A stretch of 64,000 nucleotides of DNA from Sulfurimonas sp. HSL-1656 (GTDB lineage: Bacteria; Campylobacterota; Campylobacteria; Campylobacterales; Sulfurimonadaceae), in contig NZ_CP147915.1 of assembly GCF_039645585.1 (NCBI RefSeq), positions 186,001 through 250,000 on the forward strand, read 5' to 3'. The first letter of the stretch is position 1. Every line of letters begins with the position of its first letter. Below the pieces are notes generated by a model, which saw nothing but the letters and a program-made list of their open reading frames with translations, was not told where the DNA came from and made no database searches. Of this stretch, positions 21,884-39,782 are shown in pieces. A program made the position numbers and the translations under genes.

Positions 21884-21902
21884 GCCGCATTTTATACTAT
21901 AG

Positions 21903-22015
21903 AAATATGTTGATTATATAACCAGATTTACACTTCTTTCACCCTGATTTTCCAGCTATACAAACGTGAAATGTATTAAAATGAGGTTATTATACTGTTG
22001 AATATGTTGAAAGAC
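21903..22015. repeat. TGTTGA motifs at left island end
   Basis: AATATGTTGATTA (21,903), CTGTTGAATATGTTGAAA (21,996-22,012): three TGTTGA hexamers before the recombinase gene. The same hexamer and its complement are clustered at the right end (38,962-39,071). Likely recombinase-binding sites (inference). Confidence 0.5.
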
Positions 22016-22020
22016 AGATC

Positions 22021-23517
22021 ATGAAAAACATGAATTACCGATTGATAAATGGCAGGGTCTATTTCCACCATCAAAAAGATGGGGTCGATTACAACGATCC
22101 ATTTATCGCACAGTGGAGCGAGTGGGTATTGCTGAATGATGGGTCGTTAGGTACCGTCAAGCTGCAAGCAGGTCTTATTTTTAAATTCTGGATCTGGGCA
22201 CTTTACTTTCCTGCAGGCGAAAATGAGTCGTTGCTTCAGTATTTTGCCAGGTACAAGAAAGTCATCACAAACCGGGGATTTGAGATCAAGAAGGAGTTGA
22301 CCTTGTATATGGGTCAAAAGTCTGATGTGATGGTTTACAAGGCTGGTAAGACAAACAGTGTGGTAAACGATCTTTCTGCCCTTCAATCATTTTTTCGTTT
22401 CGTTTATGATCACAAAACGTTGCATGATGATCTACCGGAGATGCCGTACAGTGATTTCTACTTTGATAGGATGGATAGAGAGGCTCAAAATGCGAAGGAT
22501 CAGCATAGCATAGGACATGCCTATGGCCTTAAGCCAAAAGGTATGATGCGTGAATCTATGCTTGCACGATATACAGCATTGACTGATATGGTCAAAGCCG
22601 CAAATAGAAAAACCAAGAAAAAGCACTTCATTGGGCTTTCATCTTCACTGGCCATGCCACTTGATTTTTTTGATCATCTCTTAGTTGTAGCACCACCTGC
22701 GGCAAAGCTACTCTACCTTCTTTGTGCCACTTCAGCACGAATTGGACAGGCGTTGCATCTAACCTGGTTTGATGTAGATGTGGATCGCGAACGGGTTTAT
22801 CTTGTTAACCCTCGATCTCCTAGCAAGCAGCTTCCGGTGGATGCCAATGGCTTCCTCTTTTTACAGCAACCACCTCGCAAAGAACTTTTGAAGTTGCATG
22901 GTATCAATCTTGATCTTGGACATCATCAGCTTGTACGGTGGAAAACAGGTGAAATCCCTTCAATTGATGACGATGAGGGACATCTTTTTTTTATCCATCC
23001 CGTGTGGAAGGAAATGTTCTTTCATACTTATTTGAAAGTTTTTAACAACACTCCTGCAAAACATAGAAAAAATAACCCATTTGTGTTTCAGACGAGTACG
23101 GGCAAGAGGCTATTACCAAGCGAGGCTAAGGGTTGGTTAGATCGAGATATTAATGCCGTGCGGAAACAATTCCCAGCATTTGAAGGGGTTCAGTTAGAGG
23201 GTGGATTCCATTTATTTCGGCATATGTTTGCCTCTCTTATGGCTAGTCTTGCCTACTTGGAATTATCTAACGACGAGAGAATGCAGCACATTGATACTGG
23301 TGGCGGCAAAACAGAGAATATTATTGAGATCACGAAAGCAATTACACGTCGCAAAATGGGACATGCGGCAGCCAGCGATAGCATAGAAGTTTATTTCAAG
23401 GCTGATCATTATATCACCGCATACCATATGAATATTCTTCGGAAACGTGTCGAGGAATACAGGGAGCTTCGTGGGCGCATAGGTGAGGCAATTGATGTCA
23501 AAATAGTAGGGAACTAA
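22021..23517 (+). CDS. Tyrosine recombinase, GmtY-like
   Basis: 498-aa site-specific recombinase at the left island end. Catalytic residues are readable: R240 in CATSARIGQALHLTW, H397 and R400 in FHLFRHMFASL, H448 in RRKMGHAAAS and the nucleophile Y458 in SIEVYFKADH. Residues 90-200 form the expected core-binding region; the first 90 residues (FHHQKDGVDYNDPFIAQWSEW) are an additional N-terminal part. Length and position match GmtY, the first recombinase of gamma-mobile-trio islands. Alternative: an unrelated XerC/D-like integrase. The start at 22,021 follows GACAGATC without a strong Shine-Dalgarno. It probably acts with the two right-end proteins in island movement. Confidence 0.75.
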   Translation: MKNMNYRLINGRVYFHHQKDGVDYNDPFIAQWSEWVLLNDGSLGTVKLQAGLIFKFWIWALYFPAGENESLLQYFARYKKVITNRGFEIKKELTLYMGQKSDVMVYKAGKTNSVVNDLSALQSFFRFVYDHKTLHDDLPEMPYSDFYFDRMDREAQNAKDQHSIGHAYGLKPKGMMRESMLARYTALTDMVKAANRKTKKKHFIGLSSSLAMPLDFFDHLLVVAPPAAKLLYLLCATSARIGQALHLTWFDVDVDRERVYLVNPRSPSKQLPVDANGFLFLQQPPRKELLKLHGINLDLGHHQLVRWKTGEIPSIDDDEGHLFFIHPVWKEMFFHTYLKVFNNTPAKHRKNNPFVFQTSTGKRLLPSEAKGWLDRDINAVRKQFPAFEGVQLEGGFHLFRHMFASLMASLAYLELSNDERMQHIDTGGGKTENIIEITKAITRRKMGHAAASDSIEVYFKADHYITAYHMNILRKRVEEYRELRGRIGEAIDVKIVGN

Positions 23518-23614
23518 ATCGTACACGATACTTATCTAGGGGTGAAAAGCAATGATTTCGATACGATGTAGATCATAGAACGGATGACCAAATGGTAAAT
23601 TATCGGGGTTATAT

Positions 23615-26600
23615 ATGATGGAAGTAAAGTCAAGTGCGATTACATATAGTGGATATGAATATCAAACGTTACAAGGCGTTTTATTATTAGCTTATTGGCT
23701 GAATACCCCTGGTGAATATAAGCGTATTAGTTTTGAAGCAGATTTCGATAATAATGAAGCACCGCAAGGAATTGATGATATTGTATGTGAACGCACTGAC
23801 GGAAGAGTTGACTACCGCCAGGTAAAGTTTACACCAAATCCATACAAACGTGAAAATTTCTTTAGCTGGGAATGGCTGCTGAAAAGAACTGGAAAAACAG
23901 AGCGTTCACGATCAATTCTCAAAAAACTTTCTGACGCAATAACACAAGTAATGCCTGATAAATTAGGTGAAGTCATCCTTGTTACAAATAAAATTCCTGA
24001 TAGAGACATTGAGTCTTGTTTAAAAAATGGAAAACTAAATTTTGATCTTATCGAATCAGGCATACGTTCTAAAATTGTTGAGCAGTTAGGAAGTGAGGAG
24101 ATTGCACGAGGCCTTTTTGGGAAGCTGCAAATTCAGCATAGTGATGGTGATTACCATTCGATACTAAGAACTGCTCGAAATGAACTTGAAAGGCATTCTG
24201 ATGATGATGGTATTTATCGTCTATTAGAGAGAGCAAGATGGTGGGCAAGATATAAAAAACAACCATCAGAGGATGGATGGATATATCTACATAATGTTCG
24301 AGATATATTGTCTCTAAAGCGTCCTGAGCCAATTCCAGAGTCTTTTTCCATACCAGACAGTTATTGTCTACCAGATGAGACATTTCATAAATCGCTTCTA
24401 ACACAAATCATCGGTTCATCTGGCGACATCATTACTCTTGTAGGTCCTCCAGGCAGAGGTAAAAGTACTTACCTGAGTTATTTATGTCAAGAATTAGAAG
24501 ACAAGGAAATTCCTTCTATACGACATCACTATTTTCTATCTATAAGTGATCAGACCTTTGACCGCTTCAGTCCAAGGATTATTGCGGAATCGTTAATTTC
24601 ACAGATAATAAGCAATCACCGAGATGTCGGCATCTCATCCTTAAATGCAGAAGACCTTAGAAGTGCATTGGAACAGTGTGCCGCATATTATAAGAGACAA
24701 GAGAAGCCATTTGTATTGATTGTTGATGGTTTGGACCATGTATGGCGTGATAATGATGGCAATAAAAAGCCCCTCGATGAATTTTTTAGAATGCTGCTAC
24801 CAGTACCCGACAATTTGATCCTGTTGATTGGAACACAGCCTGTTGATGAATCAAAGCTTCCTAATACTCTTCTTGAACACTGTCCAAAGGGTACTTGGAA
24901 GTGGCTGCCTGCGATGACAGGAAACGCAATATATCAGTATCTTCATTTTCAATTAGATTCCGGTCGCCTTCATATGAATTGCCATGAAGACATGGTCGAA
25001 GATGAGATCAAGAAAGCGGCAGAGCAACTGATAACAATTACTTCTGGCTTTCCTCTACATGTGATTTATTCTTGCGAATTTCTTGTTCAAAACGGCAAGC
25101 CTTTGTCCTCTTGGAGCCTTGAGCATTTACCAGCCTGTGAAAATAGTGATATAACAAGCTATTATCTAGGTTTGTGGCGACGTCTTACACATAAACAGAA
25201 AGACGTTTTACATTTATGTTGTGGATTCCAGTTCATTTGGCCTCGGGAATCATTTACGACAATACTCAATGAATCACTTGAAGATACTCCAAGTCTATAT
25301 GCTGTTTCATTTCTTCTATTTGAGACAAAATCTGGTGTCCGGCCATTTCATGAAAGCCTCATAGTATTTGTAAGAAATATCGAAGAGCATAATGCAAGAG
25401 TTAATACTCTCATTGGAAATGTATGTGATTGGCTAAATAATCAAGCCCCTGAGTATCTCAAACAAAGTTGGTACTGGTTGTGTTTAGCCAAACAAGGCAA
25501 TTCAATACCCCTCCGGGAAGGAGTTTCACGCGATTGGGTTCTTGATCGTGCATCTGAAGGCTATAGTCTGCAAATGCTTATTCGCCTGTTGGAAAATGCT
25601 GAGAATATTGCTTTCAAAGAGTTTCATTATGCTGAAGCATATAGGCATAGAGTATTAAAAACGCGTTTACTTAATGGCCCTGAATTCCAAATATGGGATT
25701 ATCCAACTTTAGAAATGCTATCTCTATATAACGCATCAGCATCAATAATAGACTTGGAACTCTCTCTATATCGTGATTTCACTCCGAAACGCTTGGCCAT
25801 CTTATCAATTGCATTGTGGCAGCGTCAAGATTTTAATAAAGCAAAAGATCTGGCAAAAAAAGCAATCGATAAACATAGATCACAAATCAAATTCAGAAGA
25901 CGCTCTCACAGAGATGAATCGGATGATGAAGCACATGCAATCATCAGGGCTGGTGTTTTGTCGGACGTCCTTAATTATGACTTTGTTTTTGCAGATGATA
26001 ATTTTGTGCATTGGTCAGAAAGTTACATAAAAGCTTTTAAAGACGCTTGTCTCTCTAAAGGTGATATAGCATTGATGATGAAAGCATTGCAAGTTTTGGG
26101 AAAATCTTCGGAAGGTAGAGAATTTGAGTTGGCGGCGATTCGTACAAGTATTCTTGAAGATTCAGATATTTTTTCCTGGCAAGAATTTTTAGAAAATCAT
26201 TCCCATCCAGCGAGCAAATCGCTTAAGCTGTTGAGAACAAGAAACTTCAAGTCAACAGAGGACAGTTTCGCAGACTTTGAGAATTATAATTGTTGTGCAC
26301 ATTCTGAGATTAGCTATTACGAATGGTTTTTTGAGGCTCTGGCAATTAAATTAAGTGCAGAGGGAGACTTCTCCTGGTTGCCGGCCAACGCAACTAGAGA
26401 TGATGTAGATATCTCTTTTCATTTAAATACCCTTACTGAACTGGCAAGTAGTGTTTCAGAGCTTCTAATGGCTTTAGAGGAGGTCGATTTCCTTCTAATG
26501 AGTGATTATCTGTTAGAAGTTTCATTCCCAAAGGAATCAAGCGCTCGCAGTCGAAGAGAAGAAATTATGTTCAAACGAGATTGGTTGAAAATTTCTGCAG

Positions 26601-29401
26601 ATATCCATCTATTTACAACTCAAAGACAGATCACTTTAGAAGAGCTTCAAGAAGCAATTTCACTAGAAGTATACATGTTAGTTTGGTTGAGACTTTGGTA
26701 TGTCGAGATTGGACAAACTTTTCTATCTGACGCCGCTGCCACATTGCTTCTTGAAAGTTCAATTCATGAACAAAATGAAGAGCTGCAAAATACTACAGAG
26801 CGTGCGAATGACAACTTGGAATTAGCGTGTATTGCTTTACGACATGGCAAACAAGAGTTCATTCCAAACATTATTAAGCTCTGTTGGGACTATACGATTG
26901 GTTATGGTGGTCATAAAGACACGACTATATTTAATGTCTTAGATGCAATAGAATGTTTGTCAGATTGCTGTCCATCAGAAGCAATGACTTTACTTGAACG
27001 GATTTCACCGATTGTATTTAATATTACTGAATTTACAGATGGTGATGAAACCAAGCACGCCCTAGCAGCGATTTCGGAAATATTAACAAAATTAAGCCCA
27101 GTCACATTGGCTTCAAAATATGCTCAGGAAGTCCGATATGGCGAATGGTATGAAGCTGATACTTCTTTGTCAGAAATACTGAAACACACCAGTTTCAACT
27201 CTGATATTGTCAGACGATTTTGTCTCACTGGTCTCTCGCATAAATGTCATCAAATACTTGCAACAAAGGTTGAAGAACATGATGAGAATGCTGAGGCAAT
27301 TGCTGCAGCCATTCAGGAAACTCAGGGAATAGATTTAAAAGTGGAGGATGAAAAAAATGAATCAAATACCGTGGGTGAAAAAATAGAAATTGATCCTGCA
27401 CTGTACCCTCCTGATCATTTAGTTGAACTTGAAAATGCATTAGCTGGAATGTATTCCACTTATAATTTCTGGCCTCGCTGGTATTCTTATTGGGTTGAAC
27501 ATGGTCGAGAACAGGAACTTCTCCAAATTCTTCCAGATGCCATATCTAATTGCAGGGATAAATTGGATGATAAAAAATATTTGTATGATCTATTGTTTGA
27601 CAGTAGTAAAAAGTTCAATGGTAAGAAAAAGTCTTTTGAGTTTTTAGTCGCTGCTCAAATTAGTATGGGAGGCTGGTTGAATTGGCATGAAAGACAAGAA
27701 AACTCGCGTAAACGGCTAAAAAAAGTCGCTGAAATTTATCCGGATAGGATAGATGAATTTATAGCAGCTACTACAACATCACTAGATGTTTGGTATTCAA
27801 AGGCAGATGAACAGATCATTCCAAGCGATAAATTAGTTTATCTCTTGGTTGAGGCTGGCAGAACAGAAGAAGCAATTGGTTTCATCATTGCAATGATAGA
27901 AAAGCTAGAAGAAGATACAAGAAATCTAAATTTACCAAGTCCTCATTGGGATTGGCATGCTATCGATGATATTGATGAAGTATTCATCAAATTACTCGTT
28001 TCAAGATTAAAATGGCCAGTATCTACTATTAAATTGTGGGTCAGTCAACAGTTGGCGGGACTGTTGGTTGAAATGCCTGAAAAAATAGAAGATGTTTTGC
28101 TATCTGCACTGTCCAAGTGTGAACAGGAGTCAGAATGTATTGAAGTATTAGCTGTATTTTTGATAGCAAAAGACTTTGGGTACAAACCAATTAAAGAAAT
28201 TGGTGAGTTCATTCATACGCGATCAGTGCTCTCAGAAATGTTGATTGAAGATCTTGGACTTTCCGTAAAAGGGTATTTCGCAGCTGATTTTGAACCATTA
28301 TGGGTGTCTGATCCTGAAAACAATAGTTTTGAGCAAGCTCAAGGGCAGTATGTCCCCCTTGTATACAAACATACATTAGAGGAAGAAGAAAAAAAAACTG
28401 ATATCCCATTTTCAGAATTTTATGAATCTGAGTGGAATAGAACGTTCAAATATGCTTCGGCTGTAAACAATGAAATTAGCTACTTCTTGAATTCAGATTT
28501 TGAAGGCAGTACTGGTTCCTTCTACACTAACAATAGTCATCGAGGGCGTTCAGCCTTCTTAAGAGTCATTGAAATTGGAAGAAAGTTTTTCAGAATGCCG
28601 GATCACTATGCTGAAATACTTGCAATACATGCTTTACCCATTGAACCCGCATATATTCATTTACGACCGATCAAACCAAAATGGCTCCCCGAATGGACTT
28701 ATGGAAACGATGTGACAGAGACAAATCTGACCCAATTCATAAGACAATGTGCTTCTAATCTAAATGATTCTGAACAAGATGCAGTCTTAGGTGCACTGGC
28801 GTTTCCAATACAAATTGATAAAGATTCCTGGGTAGATTTAACAGTACTCCGGGGTGTTGTTTTGGGGGGACATTCTCATAAGATTACATTCAACGAAAGG
28901 ATGAACGGATTCTCTATAGGGGATAGATTAAATCGAATGATTTCATATCATTGTAATGAACTTGAGCTTGATGATGAGACCAAAGTATTGCAACTGTCGG
29001 GGACTACTTACCCTTTATCGAGATATGGTTATTGGCATTCTGACATGGAAGTTAGAGGAGTAAATGTTCCACTCACATATGCTAAGAATAGGGAAATTGA
29101 AGCTTACTCTTCAAATAGCAAGCTTGTATTTCGTATAGATGGTGATTCTATTGGTGAGTTCGGCTATTGGAACTACAAGTGGGCTCCTGCTTATCCAAAA
29201 AATATTGACTCATTGTGCGGTACTTATACGACTTTTTCCATGTCCAGTCTTGAACAGTGGATGCACAAAGACTTATCAGGTTTAGATCAAGTCTTTATGT
29301 GTAAAGTGTCTTATATCCGAAGAGATCATTCATATTCAAAATATGAAATTGATGAGCAGACTCTAGTAATTTCAGAAGTACTTGCAAAAGATAAAAATTG
29401 A
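23615..29401 (+). CDS. Avs-like STAND NTPase with N-terminal Cap4-type nuclease domain
   Basis: 1,928-aa multidomain protein, probably an anti-phage sensor-effector. Residues 1-210: Cap4/DUF4297-like nuclease, with SGYEYQTLQGVLLLAYW, D54-D55 in GIDDIV and Q69-V-K71 in YRQVKF forming a PD-(D/E)XK-type site. Residues 260-460: P-loop NTPase, Walker A GPPGRGKST (277-285), Walker B FVLIVDGLDH (366-375), then a winged-helix-like section. Residues about 600-1,650: helical repeat-like region (AKDLAKKAIDKH and similar). The end is beta-rich. This order, nuclease-STAND-long repeat sensor, is that of Avs (AVAST) proteins, which recognise phage terminase or portal and then cut DNA. No second defence gene is needed in such systems. 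Family placement by architecture; the trigger is unknown. Confidence 0.75.
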   Translation: MMEVKSSAITYSGYEYQTLQGVLLLAYWLNTPGEYKRISFEADFDNNEAPQGIDDIVCERTDGRVDYRQVKFTPNPYKRENFFSWEWLLKRTGKTERSRSILKKLSDAITQVMPDKLGEVILVTNKIPDRDIESCLKNGKLNFDLIESGIRSKIVEQLGSEEIARGLFGKLQIQHSDGDYHSILRTARNELERHSDDDGIYRLLERARWWARYKKQPSEDGWIYLHNVRDILSLKRPEPIPESFSIPDSYCLPDETFHKSLLTQIIGSSGDIITLVGPPGRGKSTYLSYLCQELEDKEIPSIRHHYFLSISDQTFDRFSPRIIAESLISQIISNHRDVGISSLNAEDLRSALEQCAAYYKRQEKPFVLIVDGLDHVWRDNDGNKKPLDEFFRMLLPVPDNLILLIGTQPVDESKLPNTLLEHCPKGTWKWLPAMTGNAIYQYLHFQLDSGRLHMNCHEDMVEDEIKKAAEQLITITSGFPLHVIYSCEFLVQNGKPLSSWSLEHLPACENSDITSYYLGLWRRLTHKQKDVLHLCCGFQFIWPRESFTTILNESLEDTPSLYAVSFLLFETKSGVRPFHESLIVFVRNIEEHNARVNTLIGNVCDWLNNQAPEYLKQSWYWLCLAKQGNSIPLREGVSRDWVLDRASEGYSLQMLIRLLENAENIAFKEFHYAEAYRHRVLKTRLLNGPEFQIWDYPTLEMLSLYNASASIIDLELSLYRDFTPKRLAILSIALWQRQDFNKAKDLAKKAIDKHRSQIKFRRRSHRDESDDEAHAIIRAGVLSDVLNYDFVFADDNFVHWSESYIKAFKDACLSKGDIALMMKALQVLGKSSEGREFELAAIRTSILEDSDIFSWQEFLENHSHPASKSLKLLRTRNFKSTEDSFADFENYNCCAHSEISYYEWFFEALAIKLSAEGDFSWLPANATRDDVDISFHLNTLTELASSVSELLMALEEVDFLLMSDYLLEVSFPKESSARSRREEIMFKRDWLKISADIHLFTTQRQITLEELQEAISLEVYMLVWLRLWYVEIGQTFLSDAAATLLLESSIHEQNEELQNTTERANDNLELACIALRHGKQEFIPNIIKLCWDYTIGYGGHKDTTIFNVLDAIECLSDCCPSEAMTLLERISPIVFNITEFTDGDETKHALAAISEILTKLSPVTLASKYAQEVRYGEWYEADTSLSEILKHTSFNSDIVRRFCLTGLSHKCHQILATKVEEHDENAEAIAAAIQETQGIDLKVEDEKNESNTVGEKIEIDPALYPPDHLVELENALAGMYSTYNFWPRWYSYWVEHGREQELLQILPDAISNCRDKLDDKKYLYDLLFDSSKKFNGKKKSFEFLVAAQISMGGWLNWHERQENSRKRLKKVAEIYPDRIDEFIAATTTSLDVWYSKADEQIIPSDKLVYLLVEAGRTEEAIGFIIAMIEKLEEDTRNLNLPSPHWDWHAIDDIDEVFIKLLVSRLKWPVSTIKLWVSQQLAGLLVEMPEKIEDVLLSALSKCEQESECIEVLAVFLIAKDFGYKPIKEIGEFIHTRSVLSEMLIEDLGLSVKGYFAADFEPLWVSDPENNSFEQAQGQYVPLVYKHTLEEEEKKTDIPFSEFYESEWNRTFKYASAVNNEISYFLNSDFEGSTGSFYTNNSHRGRSAFLRVIEIGRKFFRMPDHYAEILAIHALPIEPAYIHLRPIKPKWLPEWTYGNDVTETNLTQFIRQCASNLNDSEQDAVLGALAFPIQIDKDSWVDLTVLRGVVLGGHSHKITFNERMNGFSIGDRLNRMISYHCNELELDDETKVLQLSGTTYPLSRYGYWHSDMEVRGVNVPLTYAKNREIEAYSSNSKLVFRIDGDSIGEFGYWNYKWAPAYPKNIDSLCGTYTTFSMSSLEQWMHKDLSGLDQVFMCKVSYIRRDHSYSKYEIDEQTLVISEVLAKDKN

Positions 29402-29489
29402 CAGTTGCTTAAACTGAATATGAAGGTAGAACGACAACATTATTTCATTATGTCGTAAACGCTACGTCTAAAAGACATCTTTGATTTGC

Positions 29490-29846
29490 TTAGCAAAACC
29501 ATTCTGGACGAGCATAAACATAATACCAGAAGATGCGTTCTCCAAGCATTCGGCGTCTGATACAACCTAATATGATCATCGTAAAATTGTACTTTGTTGC
29601 CGCTGCATTTATTGCCGCATCAATATCTACTCTTTCCCCCCATTTGACCCCAATCAGGACACCTTCTTTTTGAAATGGCAGTACTGTAAACTGGCATCTA
29701 TTCTTATCAAAATAGATATATCTGAATTGCGTATCGACCGGTCTCACGTAATACATATCAAACCAGAACACACCCCTTAGCAGCTTACGCTTTGCATCAA
29801 ACACATCGTCTGTCAGTGCTGGGAGATATTGGGCGTCAAGTTTCAT
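29490..29846 (-). CDS. Hypothetical protein in island
   Basis: 118-aa protein that I do not recognise. It is aromatic-rich (GVFWFDMYYVRPVDTQFRYIYF) with a basic stretch IRRRMLGERIFWYYVY near the C-terminus, and no signal peptide or transmembrane segment is evident. It is transcribed away from the SRAP gene, with 62 nt between the starts, and toward the Avs-like gene. No good ribosome-binding site precedes its ATG, which lowers confidence. Confidence 0.5.
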   Translation of the reverse strand: MKLDAQYLPALTDDVFDAKRKLLRGVFWFDMYYVRPVDTQFRYIYFDKNRCQFTVLPFQKEGVLIGVKWGERVDIDAAINAAATKYNFTMIILGCIRRRMLGERIFWYYVYARPEWFC

Positions 29847-29908
29847 GATTGAAGTATATGACCAACACTAAAGACATCGACTGAAATATGACGTGGTAAA
29901 ATAAGTCT

Positions 29909-30574
29909 ATGTGTGGACGTATTGGTTTTTTTGACGATACCAATTGGAAGGATGCTCTTCAAGCGAGCCATATTCAATACAGAGACGATATTGGGACGCT
30001 TCGGCCCAGCTACAATATAGCTCCGACACAGCTGATGGCAACACTTATGAATACTGGAGTGTACGCATATACTCATTTTGGGTTGATCCCCCACTGGGCC
30101 AAGGACGCTAAGTTTCAGCCCATCAATGCCCGAGCCGAAAGTGTAACGCAGAAGTCTACATTCAAAGGGCCTATCCGGTACAAGAGATGCTTGGTTCCCG
30201 TAAATGGTTTTTACGAATGGCAGCGAACAGATACGGGGAAGGTGCCATACTGGATAACTTCAAGTGAGTCCAGTCTCATTGCCCTGGCTGGTATCTATGA
30301 TGAATGGCTTGGTCCAGATGGTATAGTCATAGGAACTGCTGTTATCACCACTGTTCCTAATGACGTTATGAGGCCTATCCATGACCGAATGCCAGTGATT
30401 TTGCAGCAAGATGATTGGCGGTTCTGGCTTGATCCAAAAGTGACCGAACCTGATGCACTACAGCCAATGCTCGTGCCGTACGGTCCAGCTCTGATGGTGA
30501 CTAAGGTGTCTACATATGTTAATTCACCAGAGCACAATGACCCAAAATGTATTAGTCCATCATTGTATAAATGA
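29909..30574 (+). CDS. SRAP/YedK-family abasic-site protein
   Basis: 221-aa SOS-response-associated peptidase domain protein (YedK, human HMCES). These proteins process their N-terminal Met and use Cys2 to form a thiazolidine crosslink with abasic sites in single-stranded DNA. All key features are present: MCGRIG (Cys2), RPSYNIAPTQ, FGLIPHWAKD, INARAESV, GFYEW (Glu) and MRPIHDRMPVIL (His). Length is standard. In a defence island it may protect against base-modifying or uracil/abasic DNA strategies; role in this island is inference. Divergent from the upstream hypothetical gene. Confidence 0.93.
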   Translation: MCGRIGFFDDTNWKDALQASHIQYRDDIGTLRPSYNIAPTQLMATLMNTGVYAYTHFGLIPHWAKDAKFQPINARAESVTQKSTFKGPIRYKRCLVPVNGFYEWQRTDTGKVPYWITSSESSLIALAGIYDEWLGPDGIVIGTAVITTVPNDVMRPIHDRMPVILQQDDWRFWLDPKVTEPDALQPMLVPYGPALMVTKVSTYVNSPEHNDPKCISPSLYK

Positions 30575-30591
30575 CTTCGTGAAGGTATATT

Positions 30592-30900
30592 ATGAGTATG
30601 AAAATAGTGCTAATAGGCATGTATAAAACAATTATAAAACCATTGAAGCAGATTTGGATTGATAGGAGAGATGATTATCGTCCTTACTGCTTTGAATATA
30701 ATTCTGTTATCTATAGAATATCTTTAAAACAATTGCGAAGAGCTGCAAGAGATAATGAAAAAGTAGTCATTGTTTCAATGAAAACACTTAATCAAGATAC
30801 GGAAGAATGGGCTTTAAAGGTTGATACTACTGAACTTCAAGAGATATTGTCTAATTTATTGTCAACTGTAGAAAACAATTACCCAGAAGATTGTATTTAG
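30592..30900 (+). CDS. Hypothetical protein downstream of SRAP gene
   Basis: 102-aa basic N-terminal half (KPLKQIWIDRRDDYRPYCF) and acidic C-terminal half (TTELQEILSNLLSTVENNYPED). No motif was recognised. It starts 17 nt after the SRAP stop, with GAAGG six bases ahead of the ATG, so the two are probably co-transcribed. An internal ATG two codons later is equally possible. Confidence 0.6.
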   Translation: MSMKIVLIGMYKTIIKPLKQIWIDRRDDYRPYCFEYNSVIYRISLKQLRRAARDNEKVVIVSMKTLNQDTEEWALKVDTTELQEILSNLLSTVENNYPEDCI

Positions 30901-30948
30901 ACATTATAGTTGAGCTTTACAGCTGTTTTGTTCTGATACACTCTTAGC

Positions 30949-31383
30949 ATGAAACTATTTATCTTAGCTCTACTTTTCTCCATTACTCTGAACGCATCAT
31001 CTATCAAAGACAATAACTTTGGTTCCGTTCGGGTCGATGAAATTACTAGCATCTATGACGGTGACACATTTCGAGCCACGATCAAAGCATGGCCGCTGTT
31101 AATTGGCGAACGCATCGGGATCCGTATCAACGGGGTAGACACCCCTGAGATGAGAGGCAAATGCCAGGCCGAAAAAGATCTCGCCAGAAAAGCTAAACAA
31201 CATGCCGTATCTTTACTTCGTAACGCGAAAGTGGTTGAGCTGCGGAACATGAAACGTGGAAAATACTTCCGAATCGTTGCAGACGTATATGCTGATGGAG
31301 TAAGTGTAGGTCAAAGCTTGATAAACAATAGTTTGGCAGTTCAATATGATGGGGGCACCAAGACTAAGGATTGGTGTAAATAA
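30949..31383 (+). CDS. Secreted thermonuclease (SNase) domain protein
   Basis: 144-aa staphylococcal-nuclease-like enzyme with a signal peptide (KLFILALLFSITLNAS). Active-site equivalents are D39 in YDGDT, R59 in GIRINGVDTPEMRG, D64 and E67 in the same block, and R108 in KYFRIVADVY. It would cleave DNA or RNA in the periplasm or outside the cell with Ca2+. Such small SNase genes are common on conjugative plasmids and islands. Here it could degrade incoming DNA during entry; that is inference. The Shine-Dalgarno is weak. Confidence 0.9.
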   Translation: MKLFILALLFSITLNASSIKDNNFGSVRVDEITSIYDGDTFRATIKAWPLLIGERIGIRINGVDTPEMRGKCQAEKDLARKAKQHAVSLLRNAKVVELRNMKRGKYFRIVADVYADGVSVGQSLINNSLAVQYDGGTKTKDWCK

Positions 31384-31448
31384 ATTCCACGTATATCAGT
31401 AGTATTGGGAAATGTGTAATGATATTTCCATGTGCTTTATTAGGTAAT

Positions 31449-31590
31449 AGTGCCTTAAATGGGTTCGTTTAAAATGAATAAAGTGCCTTAAATGGGTTCG
31501 TTTTTTTCATTTTTTTGCTCTGATTTATTGTCGTAACTGCTCAAAATAGCTCAAAACACTTATTTTTTTACCCTGCCTTATTTGGGTGCA
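31449..31590. repeat. 22-bp direct repeat plus degenerate copy
   Basis: A perfect 22-bp unit with core TGCCTTAAATGGGTTCG occurs at 31,449-31,470 and 31,482-31,503 (period 33). A degenerate form, TGCCTTATTTGGGTGC, is at 31,574-31,589. Confidence 0.75.
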
Positions 31591-31700
31591 AAAACTCTTC
31601 TTTTTTATATATTTTTCCTGCTCATGAAATCGCAAAGAAAGACGTCTAAATTCTCTCTCTTGTCTTTTCAATTAGAAATAACTTTCTGTAAATTTCTCAA

Positions 31701-31887
31701 GGTGGGACATAGTTGTCGCAACTAGTACAGGTGGGACATAGTTTTCCTCAACCATACGCGAAAACGCAAAAAAATTCCTTTTCTTTAGGCGAAAAGTGTA
31801 TATTTACTCCATGAGTATGACCCTTTTACTCTTTTTGCGGAAGTTTATTCCCACCTTTCTGTGTTTTACGGACTTTTATTCCCACCT
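31701..31887. repeat. AGGTGGGA direct pair and inverted TCCCACCT pair
   Basis: GGTGGGACATAGTT at 31,701-31,714 and 31,730-31,743 (period 29), then TTTATTCCCACCT at 31,844-31,856 and 31,875-31,887 (period 31). The shared core AGGTGGGA is inverted between the two pairs, so the 187 bp look like a short element with two sites at each end. Confidence 0.65.
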
Positions 31888-31952
31888 GCAGAAATGAGGT
31901 AACAAAAGGCTCTTTAGATAGAAGGGAGATCCAATAGATTCAAAGGACGTAG

Positions 31953-32300
31953 ATGCAAAAAGGCAATGTTTTTCGTAATGGCATTCTTGCTGGCGAGATC
32001 TCAAAGGACAGTAGCGGCCTCTATCGCTTCATATACAGTCCTGAATATCTAAATAGAGACGATGCGTTATCCATTTCGGTCAGACTCCCGTTAAGAGAGG
32101 AGGCCTATGAATCCGAGTACCTTTTCCCATTCTTCTCGAATATGCTCTGCGAAGGTGTGCTCAAAGAGTTGCAGTGCCAAAAGTTTGGTATTGATGAAAA
32201 TGACCTCTTTACACGATTGCTGAAAACCACTTCGGGGGACGTCATAGGTGCTGTTACCGTTGAGGAGGTGATTGAGGATGGCTCTTCAAGACACAAATAG
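31953..32300 (+). CDS. Orphan HipA N-terminal (HipS-like) domain protein
   Basis: 115-aa protein equal to the N-subdomain 1 of HipA kinases (Couple_hipA), found as a separate protein, HipS, in HipBST systems. Typical blocks are VFRNGILAGEI, YRFIYSPEYLNRDDALSISV, LPLREEAY, LFPFFSNMLCEGVLKE and the end TTSGDVIGAVTVEE. No hipB-type HTH gene precedes it and no kinase follows, so it is either a relic or part of a new pairing. AAAGGACGTAG precedes the ATG. Its 3' end contains a strong Shine-Dalgarno for the overlapping RNase-H-like gene. Confidence 0.75.
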   Translation: MQKGNVFRNGILAGEISKDSSGLYRFIYSPEYLNRDDALSISVRLPLREEAYESEYLFPFFSNMLCEGVLKELQCQKFGIDENDLFTRLLKTTSGDVIGAVTVEEVIEDGSSRHK

Positions 32301-33039
32301 ATGTTTGCCTAAGAGGGATACGACTTCCGCGTTTTTTATGAGTGATGCAAGTTACAACCATGACACTCAAACTGCGAGTATTGCTGTACTAGAAATCATT
32401 CGACAAATACACCATAAAGAGATTATTCAATGTAGTTCTACGGTAGAGGCTGAATGGTGTGCCATTGTGGCTGCCATTGAGATAGCAGCACGTGAAAAAT
32501 ATGATCATGTTGTATGTGCGTATGATTGTTTGGCAATTGATGTAGAAGAACTAAAAGATTTTTTCTCAAGCAGGTTTAGGTCTTTACAGTTTTTGTGGCT
32601 CAAGCGAGAATTCCTGGTACCTATCGATCGGATAGCGAGAGACTATCGATATCAAAATGAAGACGCTCAAACAAAGGCCCTTGTTCAAGAAACTGAGTCG
32701 ATAGAAATGAATGCGCATTACAAACGATTGTCCAAGATGTCAAACACAGGTCGACTGCATGCGTACCTTGCTTGTCCGTTCTTGCCTCCATTCACCAAAC
32801 AAATAGTCAAAGGGTTACTTGCAAATAAATTTAAGCTCAAAGCACTAAAAGATATGTTGCCCAGCGAAGAGATAGGATGGCTGAATCTGATTTATTTGAT
32901 GGCAAGGGGTCCTCAAAAGAAACTATTATCGAGTGAGCTCAGAAAAGTACTTACTGTTCCTCAGTATCTTCAGATAGTACGTGCTGTATCAAAGGAAAAG
33001 CAATATACTTGGATACGTTTATTGCATGAAGACAAGTAA
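32278..33039 (+). CDS. RNase H-fold protein overlapping hipS-like gene
   Basis: 253-aa protein with an RNase HI-like N-terminal domain. Counting from the TTG two codons upstream, acidic residues are D25 in MSDASYN, E59/E61 in STVEAEWCAIVAAIE, D85 in CAYDCL and D119 in WLKREFLVPIDRIARD; these match the D-E-D-D order of RNase H, and the last motif is the usual RE-N-AD-LA block. The ATG at 32,278 follows GAGGAGGTG by seven bases. The C-terminal 110 residues are unrecognised. It shares 23 nt with the HipS-like gene. Likely activity: cutting RNA in RNA-DNA hybrids; biological role unknown. Confidence 0.65.
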   Translation: MALQDTNRCLPKRDTTSAFFMSDASYNHDTQTASIAVLEIIRQIHHKEIIQCSSTVEAEWCAIVAAIEIAAREKYDHVVCAYDCLAIDVEELKDFFSSRFRSLQFLWLKREFLVPIDRIARDYRYQNEDAQTKALVQETESIEMNAHYKRLSKMSNTGRLHAYLACPFLPPFTKQIVKGLLANKFKLKALKDMLPSEEIGWLNLIYLMARGPQKKLLSSELRKVLTVPQYLQIVRAVSKEKQYTWIRLLHEDK

Positions 33040-33191
33040 GTAAAGAAGTGATCATGCACAAAGTTTGTATTCTTAGTTTTAATCTATACATTAGCGCTTC
33101 ATGCATGCAAAATTGGAGTTTGCTTAGGTACTAATACCATTGTATATGTGCAATTGTCTCTTTGGTGCACTATTAAGAAAAAGGAACAAAT

Positions 33192-33890
33192 ATGAAACAA
33201 CGCCATCCGAGCACCGCCAAACTCCTAGAAAGGGCACTCGCTTATCTTGTAGAGATCGACCATGAGGATGGCGTCACTATAGAGTTGAATGGGAAAACTT
33301 ACAGCCATATCAATTTTTCTGCGCAACAAGTTATTGACTGTATGCATGAATTAGCACTTCCTGGTGAGGTTCCACTTAATAGCCGTTCTAGTTTCCGAAG
33401 AGACAAAAGTGGTGATAAAAATCAGTATATGAGGATGATTGAAAGGGCGGAGAGCAGAAGGATAGCCAGGCAGGCAAAAAAAAATGGGCTGACAATGAGT
33501 CCAGCCCAACAGCTTGACATGGCGCAACTGCAAATGGAAAACATAGCATTGAGAAAGGAAAATAATTTACTCAGGGGGAGTGTAGCCGCACTTGAGTCGT
33601 TTATTTCTCAGGCTGAACTCAGAGCTGGTGTCGAAGACGCAAAACCTATGATAGGTAGGTCTGAGAATAGCTATAAAGATAGATATGCAGTGATTCTCAA
33701 AGAACTTTTATTGAGTTTGTTTAATCAAGGGACATTGATGGTAACACCTGGAAAAGGAAAGATGCCTGCAGCCATCAATCTGGACATGCTTTACGGAACA
33801 ATGAAACTTTGTAATCTTGTAGATGTTGAGGAGTTGGTAGATATCAATATTGATGAAAAGGGTCAAATTGGTATCAAGGCGAAGAAATGA
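33192..33890 (+). CDS. Coiled-coil protein, GmtX-like
   Basis: 232-aa soluble protein. The N-terminal 60 residues (TAKLLERALAYLVEID) look like a helical domain, then a basic region SRRIARQAKK, a coiled coil (QLQMENIALRKENNLLRGSVAALESF, given in parts: residues about 115-145) and a C-terminal alpha/beta part. Small coiled-coil partners of tyrosine recombinases are known from Tn554 (TnpC) and, as GmtX, from gamma-mobile-trio islands; size and position fit GmtX. AAAAAGGAA precedes the ATG, and the stop overlaps the next gene by four bases (ATGA). It probably helps the recombinases assemble on the ends. Confidence 0.65.
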   Translation: MKQRHPSTAKLLERALAYLVEIDHEDGVTIELNGKTYSHINFSAQQVIDCMHELALPGEVPLNSRSSFRRDKSGDKNQYMRMIERAESRRIARQAKKNGLTMSPAQQLDMAQLQMENIALRKENNLLRGSVAALESFISQAELRAGVEDAKPMIGRSENSYKDRYAVILKELLLSLFNQGTLMVTPGKGKMPAAINLDMLYGTMKLCNLVDVEELVDINIDEKGQIGIKAKK

Positions 33891-36800
33891 AGAAAAACAG
33901 GAGTTCAAGAGAGATTGATCTGGATATCAGGGCTGCCTGCCAAAAGCTTGTTAAAGCCGATAAAACATACTTTAGATCAGAAAATGCTCTCCTTGAAGCA
34001 CTGGGTACGGATCAAAAAACATTGACAGAAGCTCGCCGGTTGATTGTTGGCGAATTCGGTATCCAATGGAACCAGAGGCAGAAAAGGAGATCTCCGAAAG
34101 AGGTCGACCAGGGGATCCTCGATGTCTGCCAAAAGCTCGTTGAAACGGGAAATACTTACTTTAAATCAGAAGCTTCCCTCCTAAAAGTACTTGCTATCGA
34201 TAGCCAGACACTTACAGAAGCCCGCCGGTTGATCGTAAAAGGATTCGGCATTCAATGGAACAAGAAAGAAAACTTGAGATCTTCGGAAGAGGTTGATCAG
34301 GAGATTCGCGATGTCTGTCAAAGGCTCGTCGAAACGGGGAAAACATACTTTAAATCAGAAAATGTGCTCTTCACGGAGCTTGGCATCAATGGAATATCAT
34401 TCACGGAAGCCCGTCGGTTAATCGTCACAGGATTCGGCATCCAATGGGATAAGAGAGAGAACGTGAGATCTTCGAAAGAGGTCGACCAGGGGATCCACGA
34501 TATTTGTCAAAAGCTTGTTGAAGGAGATAAAACATACTTTAGATCAGAAGCTTCCCTCGTAAGAGAGCTTGGTATTGATAGAGCGACATTCACTGAAGTC
34601 AGACAGTTGATTGTCAGAGGGTTCGGCATCCAATGGGACAAGAGAGAGGGGAACAGAACTCCAGAAGAGGTCGAGCAGGGGATCCGCGATGTCTGCCAAA
34701 GGCTCGTTGAAACGGGAAAAACATACTTTAAATCAGAAGATGCTCTCCTGAAAGCGCTTGGCGTGAATCACAGCGTATTCAGTGAAGCCCGACAGTTGAT
34801 CGTCATAGGTTTCGGTATCCAATGGGAAAAGAGAGAGGGGAACAGAACCCCAGAAGAGGTCGATCAGGGAATCCGCGATGTTTGCCAAAGACTCGTTCAA
34901 GCTGATCAGACACACTTTAAATCAGAACATGCTCTACGGAAAGAGCTAGGTGTGTTTCGTAGTAGATTCAGTGAAGCTCGTCGGTTGATCGTCAAAGGGT
35001 TTGGCATTACATGGGATAAAGAGATCATTCTTAGCGAAAATATCACATTAGCACTACAGGCGGCAGAAGAAGATGATATAAAGTTGGAGTCAATTGAGGC
35101 CTTAGTTGAATTTAGCAGCGATATACTCAGCAGGACTATTCAATTAGGTAAACTTCAAAAGGACGATAAACGAGCTATATTGGCTCTTACTAATCAGATC
35201 AAGGGTTTTGACATTGCCCAGTCCAAGAATATTGTTGAGGAGGCGGCCGCTGAGCTGACATTGCAGGGGAAGTCCGATTTTTGGATTATGGAACTCAAGT
35301 TCCAGCTATACTTGAATGGCTACTATCTGAGCGAAGAGACTATCACTAGATCCCTTATATTGCTTGAACATGATGTTGATTCCACGTTTGAAGGTCATAT
35401 CGACAAGCGACTTAGACTCGCAATACATGCCCGCGAAGAGGGAATCCCTTCGATAAAATACACAAAAAATCTTCCTGCAATCAACACATCTGAGAAAGCT
35501 AGCATCTACCTCAAACTCTCGATAAAATCGGAAAAGAGGTTTATGTCGTTGTGGAAAGAGTATGCCCTATTTGCAATCGATAATGACCTCATTGGAAATG
35601 TATCTAAGACATACATTCGACTAAACTGGGATGGGAAACTTGAGTCACTTTTAGCTCTTAACGAGTCCTATGCCAGAGCTTTCTTCCTTGATGATGAACA
35701 TATCGACATGCTTAAAGAGATGAGCTATGAAGGTTTAGCTGCACTTGCACTTTTGGCTAGTCGAAATGCAAAGCAAAGTCTTTCAAAAGTATTTCAGTCG
35801 CTCTCATTCAGAGTGAGGGGCTTTTTCCTTTTCCTTAACAGTAAAGGGTATGCGCTGTACCACTCAAAATATATCGTTTCTTTAGGAGAAGATAAGACCA
35901 GGAAGGCAATCAAATTGCTTCTTGATTCCAGCCCCGTCTTTCCCCTATATGAAAAAGTGCTTAATGGAGGCTGTGTCAACCCGGACCAGAAAAGCATTAT
36001 TAAATTCAAGAGAAAGAACGCGCTGCTGAATGCTTATTACCTAGCCTTAGCTACTAATCCAGAGGCTAATTTGCTTTCATTGACGTCAGAGCAAATTGCG
36101 GCTTATGTTGAGTCGACAAGGGGATATGCGAAAGTTGCCGGCGTTTTGTGGCACAATCAATTTATCTATGACCTTTTATACGGAAATGGAAATGAAAACG
36201 CTATCAGGCCAAAAGAGAAACCAACTCTTGAGGCATGGTTGAAACTTGAGATACAGAGGACCATATCACGATATTCAGATAATGTCTTTACATGGTATGA
36301 AGAACTCTTGCAGCAGGTGCTTGGCCTTGCAAACTTTAGGCTTGAAGAAGAGAAGAACACATTTTTGACGGTCAAGAAGTTGCTCTGGGCTTGCCTCTAT
36401 TTATTGGAGTATCTCAGTTCATTCGATCATAAACTTAGCCGAAAGGAGTTGATGGATGCGTTCAATCCTCTTGAGAGCAAAACGAAACATAGAATGTATG
36501 AATGGGCCAAAGCACGAGGAGAGGAATCGAAATACCGCCAAGCTACATCAAGCTTCAAGCTTATCTTTGACCATATTGGTATAGAGGAATATCAGGGCGT
36601 TTTTCTTGGGACAATGAAACTTCAAGCGCAGACGAGTGCCCGTAGGCTTGTCAGAAAAGGCATGGAGCTCACCGTTTACCAAACTCTGCAAGAAGTCGCA
36701 AGACGCAAACCGCCAATGAGCAGGATATACGTTTTGAAGCGTAACGCTAACGATGAGAAAAGAAGCTTGATCGATCTATCATGGTGGCCGTTTGCTGATA

Positions 36801-38500
36801 AGAATCTCTCCCCCATTTTACCAGTTTTTGAATGGTTAATATCAAAACTGCCACGGCGTGCTATGCACTTACGGTATGCTGATACGAATGAGTTTTTGCA
36901 ATATGACGAAACTGGCAATTTCCTTGGTATCTACTTCTCAACCGACAAGAATTTTGCTGATCCAAGTCTTTTTATTCCTGTGATGGTTCTACGGCTCATC
37001 TTCACACCTGAAGAGATTGAATTCCTAGAACATTACGTCTCTTACATCAAGGTGGCCTATTCCAATCTTTCCCCTGTTAAATTTGATGGGGGAGACTTTG
37101 GCTTGATCCAGCCGCTCTTTCCCCATCATGAACGTAATGATGTTATTGCCAAGCATGTGCTCGATGGATATCACAAAAAGACGATGATGGTGACACAGCT
37201 TGAGGTCAATAGACTCGCGAAACAAGGCAAATACGATGATCACTACGATGAAAGTCAGCTCGACCGCATGAGGGAATACCTCAGTACGCTTATCCTCGTA
37301 CAGACAAGAAACAATCGTAATGACACAATTAAAGTGCCGGAATCTTATGAAGCCATTGGATTGCTTACAGAACAAAATGCAGTTAAAGACTTCACGGATT
37401 CACAGGGCATCCACAATTTGCGGCATGCTGGGGCAACAGCTCTTGCGCATATTGGACTTGATCTAACACAGATAAAAGTGATAACAGGGCACAAATCAGA
37501 TGCCGTACTGCTCACTGTGTATTTGCATGGTGAAACGACATCGTTACGGACTATGGTACAAAATGCATTTTCAACGCTCCGTGATCTTCATGGCACGGCT
37601 CGCGATGTAGGTGAAAGGTTTGTGAATCGGATTGCAAAAGCTGCAATTGAAAGTGAAGACCCTGGCTCTATTCTGAATATTCTCAAGGAAAATGGGTTTA
37701 TGACAGCGCCGAGAAACATCAAAAACAAAGATAGCGATATTTTTGGCTCAGGAAGTAGCTATCGTGCAGATGGGCGTGTTGAAAATGGTCTGGAAATAGC
37801 GGCAACTTTTCATCCTGCGACCTGGAAAGTCTCCAATGTCGGTATCTGCCCAGTCGATGGACGCTGTCCGGAAGGAACCAATGGTTGCTGCGGGCTTTGC
37901 CCGCTCAATGTATTCCATATCGCCTTCATCGAAGGTTTCATTAACAAGATTCAAGATACCCTGATCGAACTAAAGCTTATCAATAACAAAATCGCCGAAT
38001 CAAAGGTGACGGGGAATATTGGAGGCCTTGAACAGTTAAAGACCCATCACCAGCATCTAATGTCGGAATTGCTTGGTTGGTACGACGTTATTCAGATGCT
38101 TGAGGAGCAGTATAAGACATTGGATCAGACCAAGAACGAAAGTGGTGCACTTCCAGCTAAGACGATAGGTGACAGATTGGTTGCGTTTCGTGTCGCCAGT
38201 ATAGATGAGGCAATGATGGAGGCCATTGTCACTGGTCGTACTATCCTGGAGGATACGGTTTCGCATGACAATTACATTGCTAGGCTTAGTTACAAGGTAT
38301 ATCTGCAGGCCGGCAAGCACTATGACTCTGAGACGATTGGAAAAATGGAAAAAGAAGGCCTAGAATGGCTGATAGCTAAATATGCCAAGTGTGATATTAA
38401 ACAAAAAAAGAAGCTTCTTGAGCGATATACTGGTGAGAAGTTGTGTCTCTTTACAAATAACAAATTAGAAGATGGCAAAAGTAAAATTGTGACTGTTTGA
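33887..38500 (+). CDS. Giant tyrosine recombinase with HTH-like repeats, GmtZ-like
   Basis: 1,537-aa recombinase, third member of the presumed trio. Residues 6-383 are six tandem 63-aa repeats resembling helix-turn-helix units. A long middle region (about 390-1,050) has no recognised motif. The catalytic domain shows H1176 and R1179 in HNLRHAGATALAHIG, H1202 in ITGHKSD and the nucleophile Y1212 in LLTVYLHGE. A Cys cluster (C1321 to about C1338, ICPVDGRCPEGTNGCCGLCP) may bind zinc, and a coiled coil lies near the C-terminus. Its size is far above ordinary integrases and matches GmtZ-type proteins. Translation is coupled to the upstream gene by ATGA. Confidence 0.75.
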   Translation: MKKNRSSREIDLDIRAACQKLVKADKTYFRSENALLEALGTDQKTLTEARRLIVGEFGIQWNQRQKRRSPKEVDQGILDVCQKLVETGNTYFKSEASLLKVLAIDSQTLTEARRLIVKGFGIQWNKKENLRSSEEVDQEIRDVCQRLVETGKTYFKSENVLFTELGINGISFTEARRLIVTGFGIQWDKRENVRSSKEVDQGIHDICQKLVEGDKTYFRSEASLVRELGIDRATFTEVRQLIVRGFGIQWDKREGNRTPEEVEQGIRDVCQRLVETGKTYFKSEDALLKALGVNHSVFSEARQLIVIGFGIQWEKREGNRTPEEVDQGIRDVCQRLVQADQTHFKSEHALRKELGVFRSRFSEARRLIVKGFGITWDKEIILSENITLALQAAEEDDIKLESIEALVEFSSDILSRTIQLGKLQKDDKRAILALTNQIKGFDIAQSKNIVEEAAAELTLQGKSDFWIMELKFQLYLNGYYLSEETITRSLILLEHDVDSTFEGHIDKRLRLAIHAREEGIPSIKYTKNLPAINTSEKASIYLKLSIKSEKRFMSLWKEYALFAIDNDLIGNVSKTYIRLNWDGKLESLLALNESYARAFFLDDEHIDMLKEMSYEGLAALALLASRNAKQSLSKVFQSLSFRVRGFFLFLNSKGYALYHSKYIVSLGEDKTRKAIKLLLDSSPVFPLYEKVLNGGCVNPDQKSIIKFKRKNALLNAYYLALATNPEANLLSLTSEQIAAYVESTRGYAKVAGVLWHNQFIYDLLYGNGNENAIRPKEKPTLEAWLKLEIQRTISRYSDNVFTWYEELLQQVLGLANFRLEEEKNTFLTVKKLLWACLYLLEYLSSFDHKLSRKELMDAFNPLESKTKHRMYEWAKARGEESKYRQATSSFKLIFDHIGIEEYQGVFLGTMKLQAQTSARRLVRKGMELTVYQTLQEVARRKPPMSRIYVLKRNANDEKRSLIDLSWWPFADKNLSPILPVFEWLISKLPRRAMHLRYADTNEFLQYDETGNFLGIYFSTDKNFADPSLFIPVMVLRLIFTPEEIEFLEHYVSYIKVAYSNLSPVKFDGGDFGLIQPLFPHHERNDVIAKHVLDGYHKKTMMVTQLEVNRLAKQGKYDDHYDESQLDRMREYLSTLILVQTRNNRNDTIKVPESYEAIGLLTEQNAVKDFTDSQGIHNLRHAGATALAHIGLDLTQIKVITGHKSDAVLLTVYLHGETTSLRTMVQNAFSTLRDLHGTARDVGERFVNRIAKAAIESEDPGSILNILKENGFMTAPRNIKNKDSDIFGSGSSYRADGRVENGLEIAATFHPATWKVSNVGICPVDGRCPEGTNGCCGLCPLNVFHIAFIEGFINKIQDTLIELKLINNKIAESKVTGNIGGLEQLKTHHQHLMSELLGWYDVIQMLEEQYKTLDQTKNESGALPAKTIGDRLVAFRVASIDEAMMEAIVTGRTILEDTVSHDNYIARLSYKVYLQAGKHYDSETIGKMEKEGLEWLIAKYAKCDIKQKKKLLERYTGEKLCLFTNNKLEDGKSKIVTV
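33902..35035 (+). repeat. Six tandem 189-bp coding repeats
   Basis: Six in-frame units of 63 codons without gaps. Conserved positions include EVDQ at the start, the CQ-LV pair, YFKSE, ALG at 33-35, and F-EAR-LIV--FGIQW near the end. Units 3-5 are nearly identical, so expansion looks recent. Positions 37-40 read DQKT, DSQT, NGIS, DRAT, NHSV, FRSR. Confidence 0.9.
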
Positions 38501-38505
38501 GAGGG

Positions 38506-38533
38506 TTGGCCGGCGCGCTAATTGCACCGGCAA
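38506..38533. terminator. Hairpin between convergent island genes
   Basis: TTGGCCGGCGCGC-TAATT-GCACCGGCAA: an imperfect GC-rich stem between the ends of the recombinase gene and the minus-strand gene. There is no T run, so termination is possible but unproven. Confidence 0.3.
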
Positions 38534-38541
38534 AGTTTATG

Positions 38542-38847
38542 TCAGTTTTCGTGCACTTCGTGTAAGAAGCAGCCAGCACGGATCGCAATTTGGTCGATAA
38601 TATCGAAGTCCTGATGGTATTCGTCGATGCCGACAACCCATGCCCTTCCCATTCTCTCGCCATCGGCAAGATCAAGCTCCGTTGCGTTTGCCGGTACGGC
38701 AATGTACGCTTGGTTGCCTCTTAATATATTTTCTGCGAATGTTTGTTCGGTAATCGCAGGATACCCATCCTCATCAATGCCAAAATAGAATTGGTCCCAA
38801 AGTCGATCAGCATTTTCGCTGATGATCAAGTAGTTTCTTGCTGTCAT
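38542..38847 (-). CDS. Hypothetical protein at right island end
   Basis: 101-aa acidic cytosolic protein that I do not recognise. It begins TARNYLIISENADRLWDQF, contains GIDEDGYPAITEQTFAENIL and ends CFLHEVHEN. ATG at 38,847 is chosen because AAAAGGACGT precedes it; the upstream ATG at 38,880 lacks a ribosome-binding site. Base composition here looks less AT-rich than the rest of the island. It is convergent with the large recombinase and lies inside the inferred island boundary, 240 nt from the comM junction. Confidence 0.6.
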   Translation of the reverse strand: MTARNYLIISENADRLWDQFYFGIDEDGYPAITEQTFAENILRGNQAYIAVPANATELDLADGERMGRAWVVGIDEYHQDFDIIDQIAIRAGCFLHEVHEN

Positions 38848-38961
38848 TCGACGTCCTTTTTGGCAGGTGCATGATTGCATCGGGCCGTCGGCATATGTAC
38901 GAGGATATTATACCTTACGCAGTTAATGCATAGTTTTGATTAGTAGTGTTGGGGATAGGAT

Positions 38962-39071
38962 TTGTTGATAGATAAATGAAATATTCAACATTGTAATCAA
39001 CACAATATACAATATGTTGATTTTGTAAAATCACTTATTTATTGGTAAATTATATATTTCAACATTGTTGA
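38962..39071. repeat. TGTTGA/TCAACA cluster at right island end
   Basis: TTGTTGATA (38,962), TTCAACATTGTAATCAACAC (38,984-39,003), AATATGTTGATTTT (39,011) and the near-palindrome TCAACATTGTTGA (39,059-39,071). The AATATGTTGATT unit is shared with the left end. Probable recombinase-binding array. Confidence 0.6.
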
Positions 39072-39077
39072 TAAAGT

Positions 39078-39746
39078 TCAAATGAGATTCGCACTGATGA
39101 GCGCGGCGCGCTTTGCGACCTCCTGACCGCGTATCTCCCTGAAATCATCGGGATAATGCTTTCGGTAGTAGTAACGCACCCCGCCAAGGGTTTGTGCGGG
39201 GAAGGGGATGGCTTTCGGCTCCGCCGGGTGTACTTCGGCTCCGGGTTCCGCTTTGAAAAAGGCGATGGCTTCGCGCAGTGTGGCCGCACCGATAAAGGTG
39301 ATGCCGGGGATATTGGAGAGCTTGTCGAGTGCTTCCAGGGGAACGACGGCTTTTTGCAGCACGCCCCGGTTGGCCAGGGAGAGGATCAGCGGGTAGAGCA
39401 TGGCGTTTTCCTTGATGCTCCCGTCAAGTCCAAGCTCTCCGAACGCGTACCACTCGGAAAAGTCCTCTTCGGCACTGTCGAGGGCGATCAGGAGGGCCAT
39501 GGCGAGGTCGAACTGGCTGCCATGTTTCTCGATATCGCTGGGGCTGAGGTTGATGGTGATGCGTTTCGGCGGGAAGGTAAAGTCGTTTGCGAGCAGGGCG
39601 CTTTTGACCCGTTCCCGCGCCTCGGAAATGGATGAAGAGGCCAGCCCCACGACGGTGAAGGAGGGAAGACCGCGTGTCAGCGTGGACTCGACAGTGACCG
39701 GAAGTGCGTCGATGCCTTCGAGGGTGGCACATTTGAGCTGTTTCAT
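39078..39746 (-). pseudogene. comM: comM, N-terminal half (interrupted by island)
   Basis: Reads MKQLKCATLEGIDALPV, GLPSFTVVGLASSSISEARERVKSALL, RITINLSPSDIEKHGSQFDLAMALL and FGELGLDGSI, the ComM N-terminal (Lon-like fold) domain, up to GQEVAKRAALISA; then three codons (NLI) of island sequence and a stop. The remaining AAA+ part lies at 21,032-21,887. The start at 39,746 follows GGGAG by seven bases. The truncated product of about 222 aa lacks the entire ATPase, so ComM function must be lost unless another copy exists. Confidence 0.92.
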
Positions 39747-39782
39747 GACATTACTCCCATAGGTCAGGAGGTATAGTAGCAC

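Follow-up and report, generated by a model that had tools for sequence, protein, structure and literature searches.

Six tandem helix-turn-helix-like units on the large tyrosine recombinase of a comM-splitting island in Sulfurimonas, a possible accessory DNA-contacting arm

The window analyzed here, a stretch of 64,000 nucleotides from Sulfurimonas sp. HSL-1656, contains an island of 17.2 kb (21890..39089, plus strand) that splits the host gene comM. Comparison with the intact comM of a genome of the same genus (G359) defined the junctions and revealed a simple insertion, GTGCG^TGCGGC, with the target neither duplicated nor lost. The two host parts of comM lie on the minus strand, the 3′ part with the Walker A side at 21032..21889 and the 5′ part at 39090..39782; the insertion point is located just before the Walker A codons. 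On the plus strand the island encodes a recombinase trio: Y (22021..23517, 498 aa), a second tyrosine recombinase adjoining the comM 3′ part; X (33192..33890, 232 aa), which contains a coiled-coil segment, has relatives at the same operon position and has a stop codon that overlaps the start of Z; and Z (33887..38500, 1537 aa), a large tyrosine recombinase with an intact ORF, formed by an N-terminal extension (residues 1-521) and a conserved core (about 522-1537). In the relatives from the phylum Y, X and Z are contiguous, whereas the window has about 9.6 kb of DNA, most of it cargo, between Y and X. The cargo (23615..33039, plus strand) comprises genes for a NACHT ATPase with a weak Cap4-nuclease match, an SNase, a HipA N-domain and RNase H-like proteins; the NACHT-type ATPase and the Cap4-nuclease match both belong to a protein of 1928 aa (23615-29401), which is probably involved in anti-phage defence.

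Z has all the pentad-type residues (R991, K1021, H1176, R1179, H1202 and Y1212), in columns that are invariant across seven aligned Z proteins. Its match to the Phage_integrase family PF00589 (E 1.3e-5, 25.4 bits) is slightly below the cut-off of 27.1, with the catalytic residues all present; judged from these residues, Z is apparently an active tyrosine recombinase. Surveys of 397 genomes of the phylum and of 399 of the order each found Z relatives in nine genomes, the window's own genome counted. The N-terminal extension is essentially missing in five relatives of Z, while it measures about 80 aa in the one from a Sulfurospirillum plasmid, about 300 aa in that of G275 and about 520 aa in the window Z; since the N-termini differ so among relatives, the repeat array of the window Z looks like a swappable arm, and in comM-splitting trios the large recombinase can bear exchangeable N-terminal modules. 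The Sulfurospirillum plasmid, pSulSP, encodes relatives of both X and Z, the former preceded by an IS21 element; its Z opens with about 80 aa that look like an HTH, for which no similarity to the units was detected. After the catalytic domain, Z relatives conserve a cysteine-rich motif, GICPx(2,3)CPxGxxxxCxLCP (37841-37903, about residues 1319-1339 of Z), which may represent a metal site. A presumed Z relative on a viral contig was an ordinary integrase ORF and was discarded.

Residues 5-382 of Z (33899-35032) consist of six contiguous head-to-tail units of 63 aa, with an exact period of 189 nt. The units, all on the plus strand, are located at 33899..34087, 34088..34276, 34277..34465, 34466..34654, 34655..34843 and 34844..35032, and they contain, in this order, the variable tetrapeptides DQKT, DSQT, NGIS, DRAT, NHSV and FRSR. 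Thus, both the six tandem repeats in an intact giant recombinase and their tetrapeptides, as reported in a preliminary description of this DNA, are real; indeed, a profile of the unit scores 115-123 bits on each of the six copies, which excludes a chance origin. A linker of about 140 aa (35033..35449, plus strand) connects the array to the conserved core, which begins near residue 522; no seventh unit was detected in it (profile score −1.6 bits). The preliminary description also regarded the units as nearly identical outside the tetrapeptide. Near-identity does not hold, as any two units share 48-70% of their residues (mean 60%), 22 of the 63 columns are invariant, and columns 29, 32, 33, 51 and 62-63 vary as well; the tetrapeptide is nevertheless the most variable four-residue stretch of the unit (permutation p=0.023). 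Counting the unit from its invariant Arg, this stretch corresponds to columns 38-41, which were numbered 37-40 in the earlier register, beginning one residue later.

Substitution rates separate this stretch from the rest of the unit: dN is 1.17 in columns 38-41 and 0.25 in the remainder, and dN/dS is about 2.2 in the former and 0.30 outside. A similar dN, 1.12, was found in the linker columns 60-63. The copies are old, with a dS between them of about 0.8; this value, together with the dN/dS of 0.30 outside the variable stretch, indicates long purifying selection on the fold. Unconstrained codons, simulated under neutrality on a star tree, matched the observed diversity of columns 38-41 in 13% of the simulations (P=0.13), so the variability is explained without diversifying selection. 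Columns 38-41 are therefore unconstrained positions, with a diversity within neutral expectation and no demonstrated positive or diversifying selection.

The structure of the repeat was predicted, as the preliminary description had proposed, and the model is HTH-like. AlphaFold2, run on one unit with the six-unit alignment, gave helix 1 at 3-19, a strand at 24-25, helix 2 at 28-35, helix 3 at 39-53 and a strand at 56-57 (mean pLDDT 83), and the five single-unit models agree in confidence. The three-unit model repeats the same plan (pLDDT 81); its pTM of 0.40 makes the arrangement between units unreliable. In a canonical HTH, helix 2 is followed by a three-residue turn and by helix 3, with hydrophobic residues at positions 4, 8, 10, 15 and 18 and Gly at 9. 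The units mostly fit this pattern, the exceptions being unit 1, with Thr at position 10, unit 2, with Ala at 9, and a position 5 that is not small. Columns 38-41 we take to be positions 11-14 of the canonical 20-residue motif, that is, the turn and the start of helix 3; in the model the variable residues are indeed placed at the start of this putative recognition helix, where the preliminary description had put them. Net positive charge is absent from units 3-5. Structural comparison of the single-unit and three-unit models with Foldseek returned nothing at E<=0.001 (E>1 for the unit), and no winged-helix family could be assigned, though the unit may belong to one. The top match in VIA-align, the Slx4 C-terminal domain, is weak (Z 4.5-5.5), and the lower ones (Z 2.2-3.3) include the winged-helix domains of IscR, Rex, the RuvB C-terminus and GntR-type proteins. 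The likeness to the N-terminal DNA-binding domain of KfrA (PF11740), suggested earlier, found no counterpart in the sequences: KfrA_N was absent from the Pfam matches of whole Z (E up to 1) and of the six units (E up to 10), and a KfrA_N search in 150 genomes of the phylum gave only matches below the cut-off.

The array is known from one example, and its sequence is unlike any found in the searched sets. Searches with the unit gave only weak matches in 397 genomes of the phylum (best outside the window, E=0.0015), none in plasmids and phages, none in viral contigs and no credible one in the PDB by sequence. Among eight other full-length Z proteins the unit profile detected units in none, and no similarity emerged when the profile was compared with the X family, with the extension of G275 or with the N-terminus of the Sulfurospirillum Z. 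A pattern scan of 84,980 species genomes produced a single match, which lies inside an unrelated 407-aa enzyme ORF and was rejected. As these scans were limited by their own seeds, the unit may have distant relatives beyond their reach.

Insertion into comM is not confined to the array-bearing island. The best match to the window Z (1.5e-37) is a protein of 965 aa from G369, devoid of N-terminal extension and units; in G369 the island has entered comM in the orientation seen in the window, at a distance of 12 bp from that insertion. Its junction falls at approximately the H and N codons of GNH^NLIMEG, a position that is accurate to a few bases since it was placed against intact sites of the same genus. 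In three further genomes with repeat-free Z proteins (G224, G237 and G281), the split in comM lies further upstream, at SPSD-like codons, and Y adjoins the 5′ part. A candidate comM insertion in G294 was left out, its Z being broken and different genes lying beside the comM part. The preliminary description had proposed that changes in the repeats could retarget integration, and had named the comparison with insertion sites of homologues as the point at which this might fail. The comparison came out against targeting, in a stronger form than the sharing of one site by different tetrapeptides: comM is entered with no repeats at all. The G369 island, 12 bp away, makes comM targeting independent of the repeats and removes the tempting claim of repeat-driven retargeting; from these genomic comparisons, the repeats appear not to select the target, and the choice of comM would be made by parts common to the repeat-free relatives (the Z core, Y and X). 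A fine-tuning by the repeats within those 12 bp is conceivable. The two islands, with and without the array in nearly the same comM codons, constitute a natural pair for probing the role of the module.

Both ends of the island contain short iterons. Three copies of TGTTGA are found at the left end (21908..22010, at 21908, 21996 and 22005), and six of TGTTGA/TCAACA, in mixed orientation, at the right end (38963..39071, at 38963, 38985, 38997, 39015, 39059 and 39066). Judged from the island interior, 0.41 copies would be expected at the two ends, where nine are present (p=6e-10, for a hexamer picked after inspection; about 1e-6 once all 2080 hexamers are allowed for), and the first 1 kb of host DNA on each side of the island lacks the hexamer. 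In the repeat-free relatives the motifs at the island ends are weaker and different. The iterons are putative sites for some DNA-binding component; the right-end spacing (22, 12, 18, 44 and 7 bp), irregular and in both orientations, is easier to reconcile with a small dimeric binder or with recombinase core sites than with a rigid reader of six units.

The trio resembles known systems without coinciding with any of them. Tsy transposons encode a YRec, a small HTH protein and a TnsF-like tyrosine recombinase; the latter selects comM, and the catalytic activity of both recombinases is required (Faure et al. 2023, PMC10293859). The window shares with them the gene order of Y, small protein and large recombinase, with X, in which an HTH would be putative, in the place of the small HTH protein; a large recombinase with a complete set of catalytic residues; and the splitting of comM, clean when compared with G359. 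The differences concern the TnsF-like N-terminus, made of zinc fingers, whereas residues 5-382 of the window Z form the HTH-like array with its one Cys per unit; the comM 5′ part, which lies upstream of YRec in Tsy, whereas the window Y adjoins the 3′ part; the insertion, near Walker B in Tsy and just upstream of Walker A in the window; and the cargo, which separates Y from X in the window island. The gamma-mobile-trio (GMT) islands, as far as they are described through PMC12715929, which cites Mahata et al. 2024, contain GmtY, GmtZ and GmtX, and thus also two tyrosine recombinases and a small protein. Among relatives, the GmtZ model is matched at E 1.2e-9 and the GmtY model at E 3.2e-11, in all cases below the curated cut-offs; the window Y matches GmtY at E=0.014 (14.7 bits against a curated cut-off of 340), while the GmtZ model gave no match to the window Z. 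An annotated GMT locus has the order Y-Z-X, unlike the Y-X-Z of the window. The strand-biased circularizing elements (SEs) and Tn554 are a related kind of trio; in the available part of their description (PMC10214605), SEs have a fourth gene, tfp, and an N-terminal HTH array does not figure for SEs or Tn554.

The reading that we favour, to which we give about even chances, is that the array is an accessory DNA-contacting arm on the Z of a three-protein island (Y, X, Z) of the Tsy, GMT, SE and Tn554 kind. Each unit would fold as a small HTH-like domain, and the units in tandem would provide Z with extended, multivalent DNA contacts, most probably at the island's own ends or next to the crossover; the catalytic domains of Y and Z would carry out strand exchange, as the conserved residues and the Tsy findings suggest, and comM would be chosen by the Z core, Y and X rather than by the repeats. 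Since the variable stretch, where the putative recognition helix begins, behaves as unconstrained, the most probable mode of binding is one of low specificity, or of a specificity common to the units, and not that of six different base readers. An accessory arm is consistent with the HTH-like fold, from which DNA binding is deduced, with the winged-helix matches, the purifying selection, the complete catalytic residues of Z, the varied Z N-termini, the G369 island and the end iterons; units 3-5 without net positive charge, no significant structural match, the Slx4 domain as the best one, the pTM of 0.40 and the single example of the array argue against it. Should the array indeed bind DNA, Z would be an apparently active recombinase equipped with a compact arm of several HTHs.

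The Slx4 C-terminal domain binds a protein partner, which, together with the missing positive charge of units 3-5, raises a less probable alternative: the units may bind X, Y or another Z instead of DNA, helping to build the synaptic complex as a protein scaffold. However, the structural matches are all weak, and the lower ones include DNA-binding winged helices. It is rather doubtful that the array is a dispensable expansion, an old tandem duplication whose fold was kept with no specific function in recombination; its presence in one genome only and the entry into comM of relatives devoid of it would agree with this, but dN/dS of 0.30 outside the variable stretch with dS of about 0.8 speaks for long selection on the fold. 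A unit-by-unit reader, in which the four variable residues specify bases, the six units read comM or the island ends and a change in copy number retargets the island, is improbable. The variable stretch being the most variable one, its location at HTH positions 11-14, its dN/dS of about 2.2 against 0.30 and the coincidence of six right-end iterons with six units would favour it; against it stand the repeat-free relatives in comM, one of them 12 bp off in the same orientation, a variability within neutral expectation (P=0.13), and one iteron sequence facing six different tetrapeptides, with a spacing and mixed orientation unlike a regular array. What is left of the modular-reader idea concerns the island ends alone, where the array, each helix-3 start having its own base preference, would read an extended sequence and define the recombined ends, and this we consider very unlikely.

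Other interruptions of comM were encountered during the analysis. In a genome of the same genus (G304:C1:200434-237138), where no Z relative was found, about 36 kb of DNA interrupts comM at another point. G224 contains two closely similar Y-X-Z elements, one in comM and one elsewhere, the second having a Z split over two reading frames. In G275 (L063:1235-6260) comM is interrupted by a Tn7-like element with TnsA, a Mu/rve transposase, TniB and a short TniQ; directly downstream of tniQ lies an ordinary tyrosine recombinase gene, possibly encoding another recombinase-type target selector.
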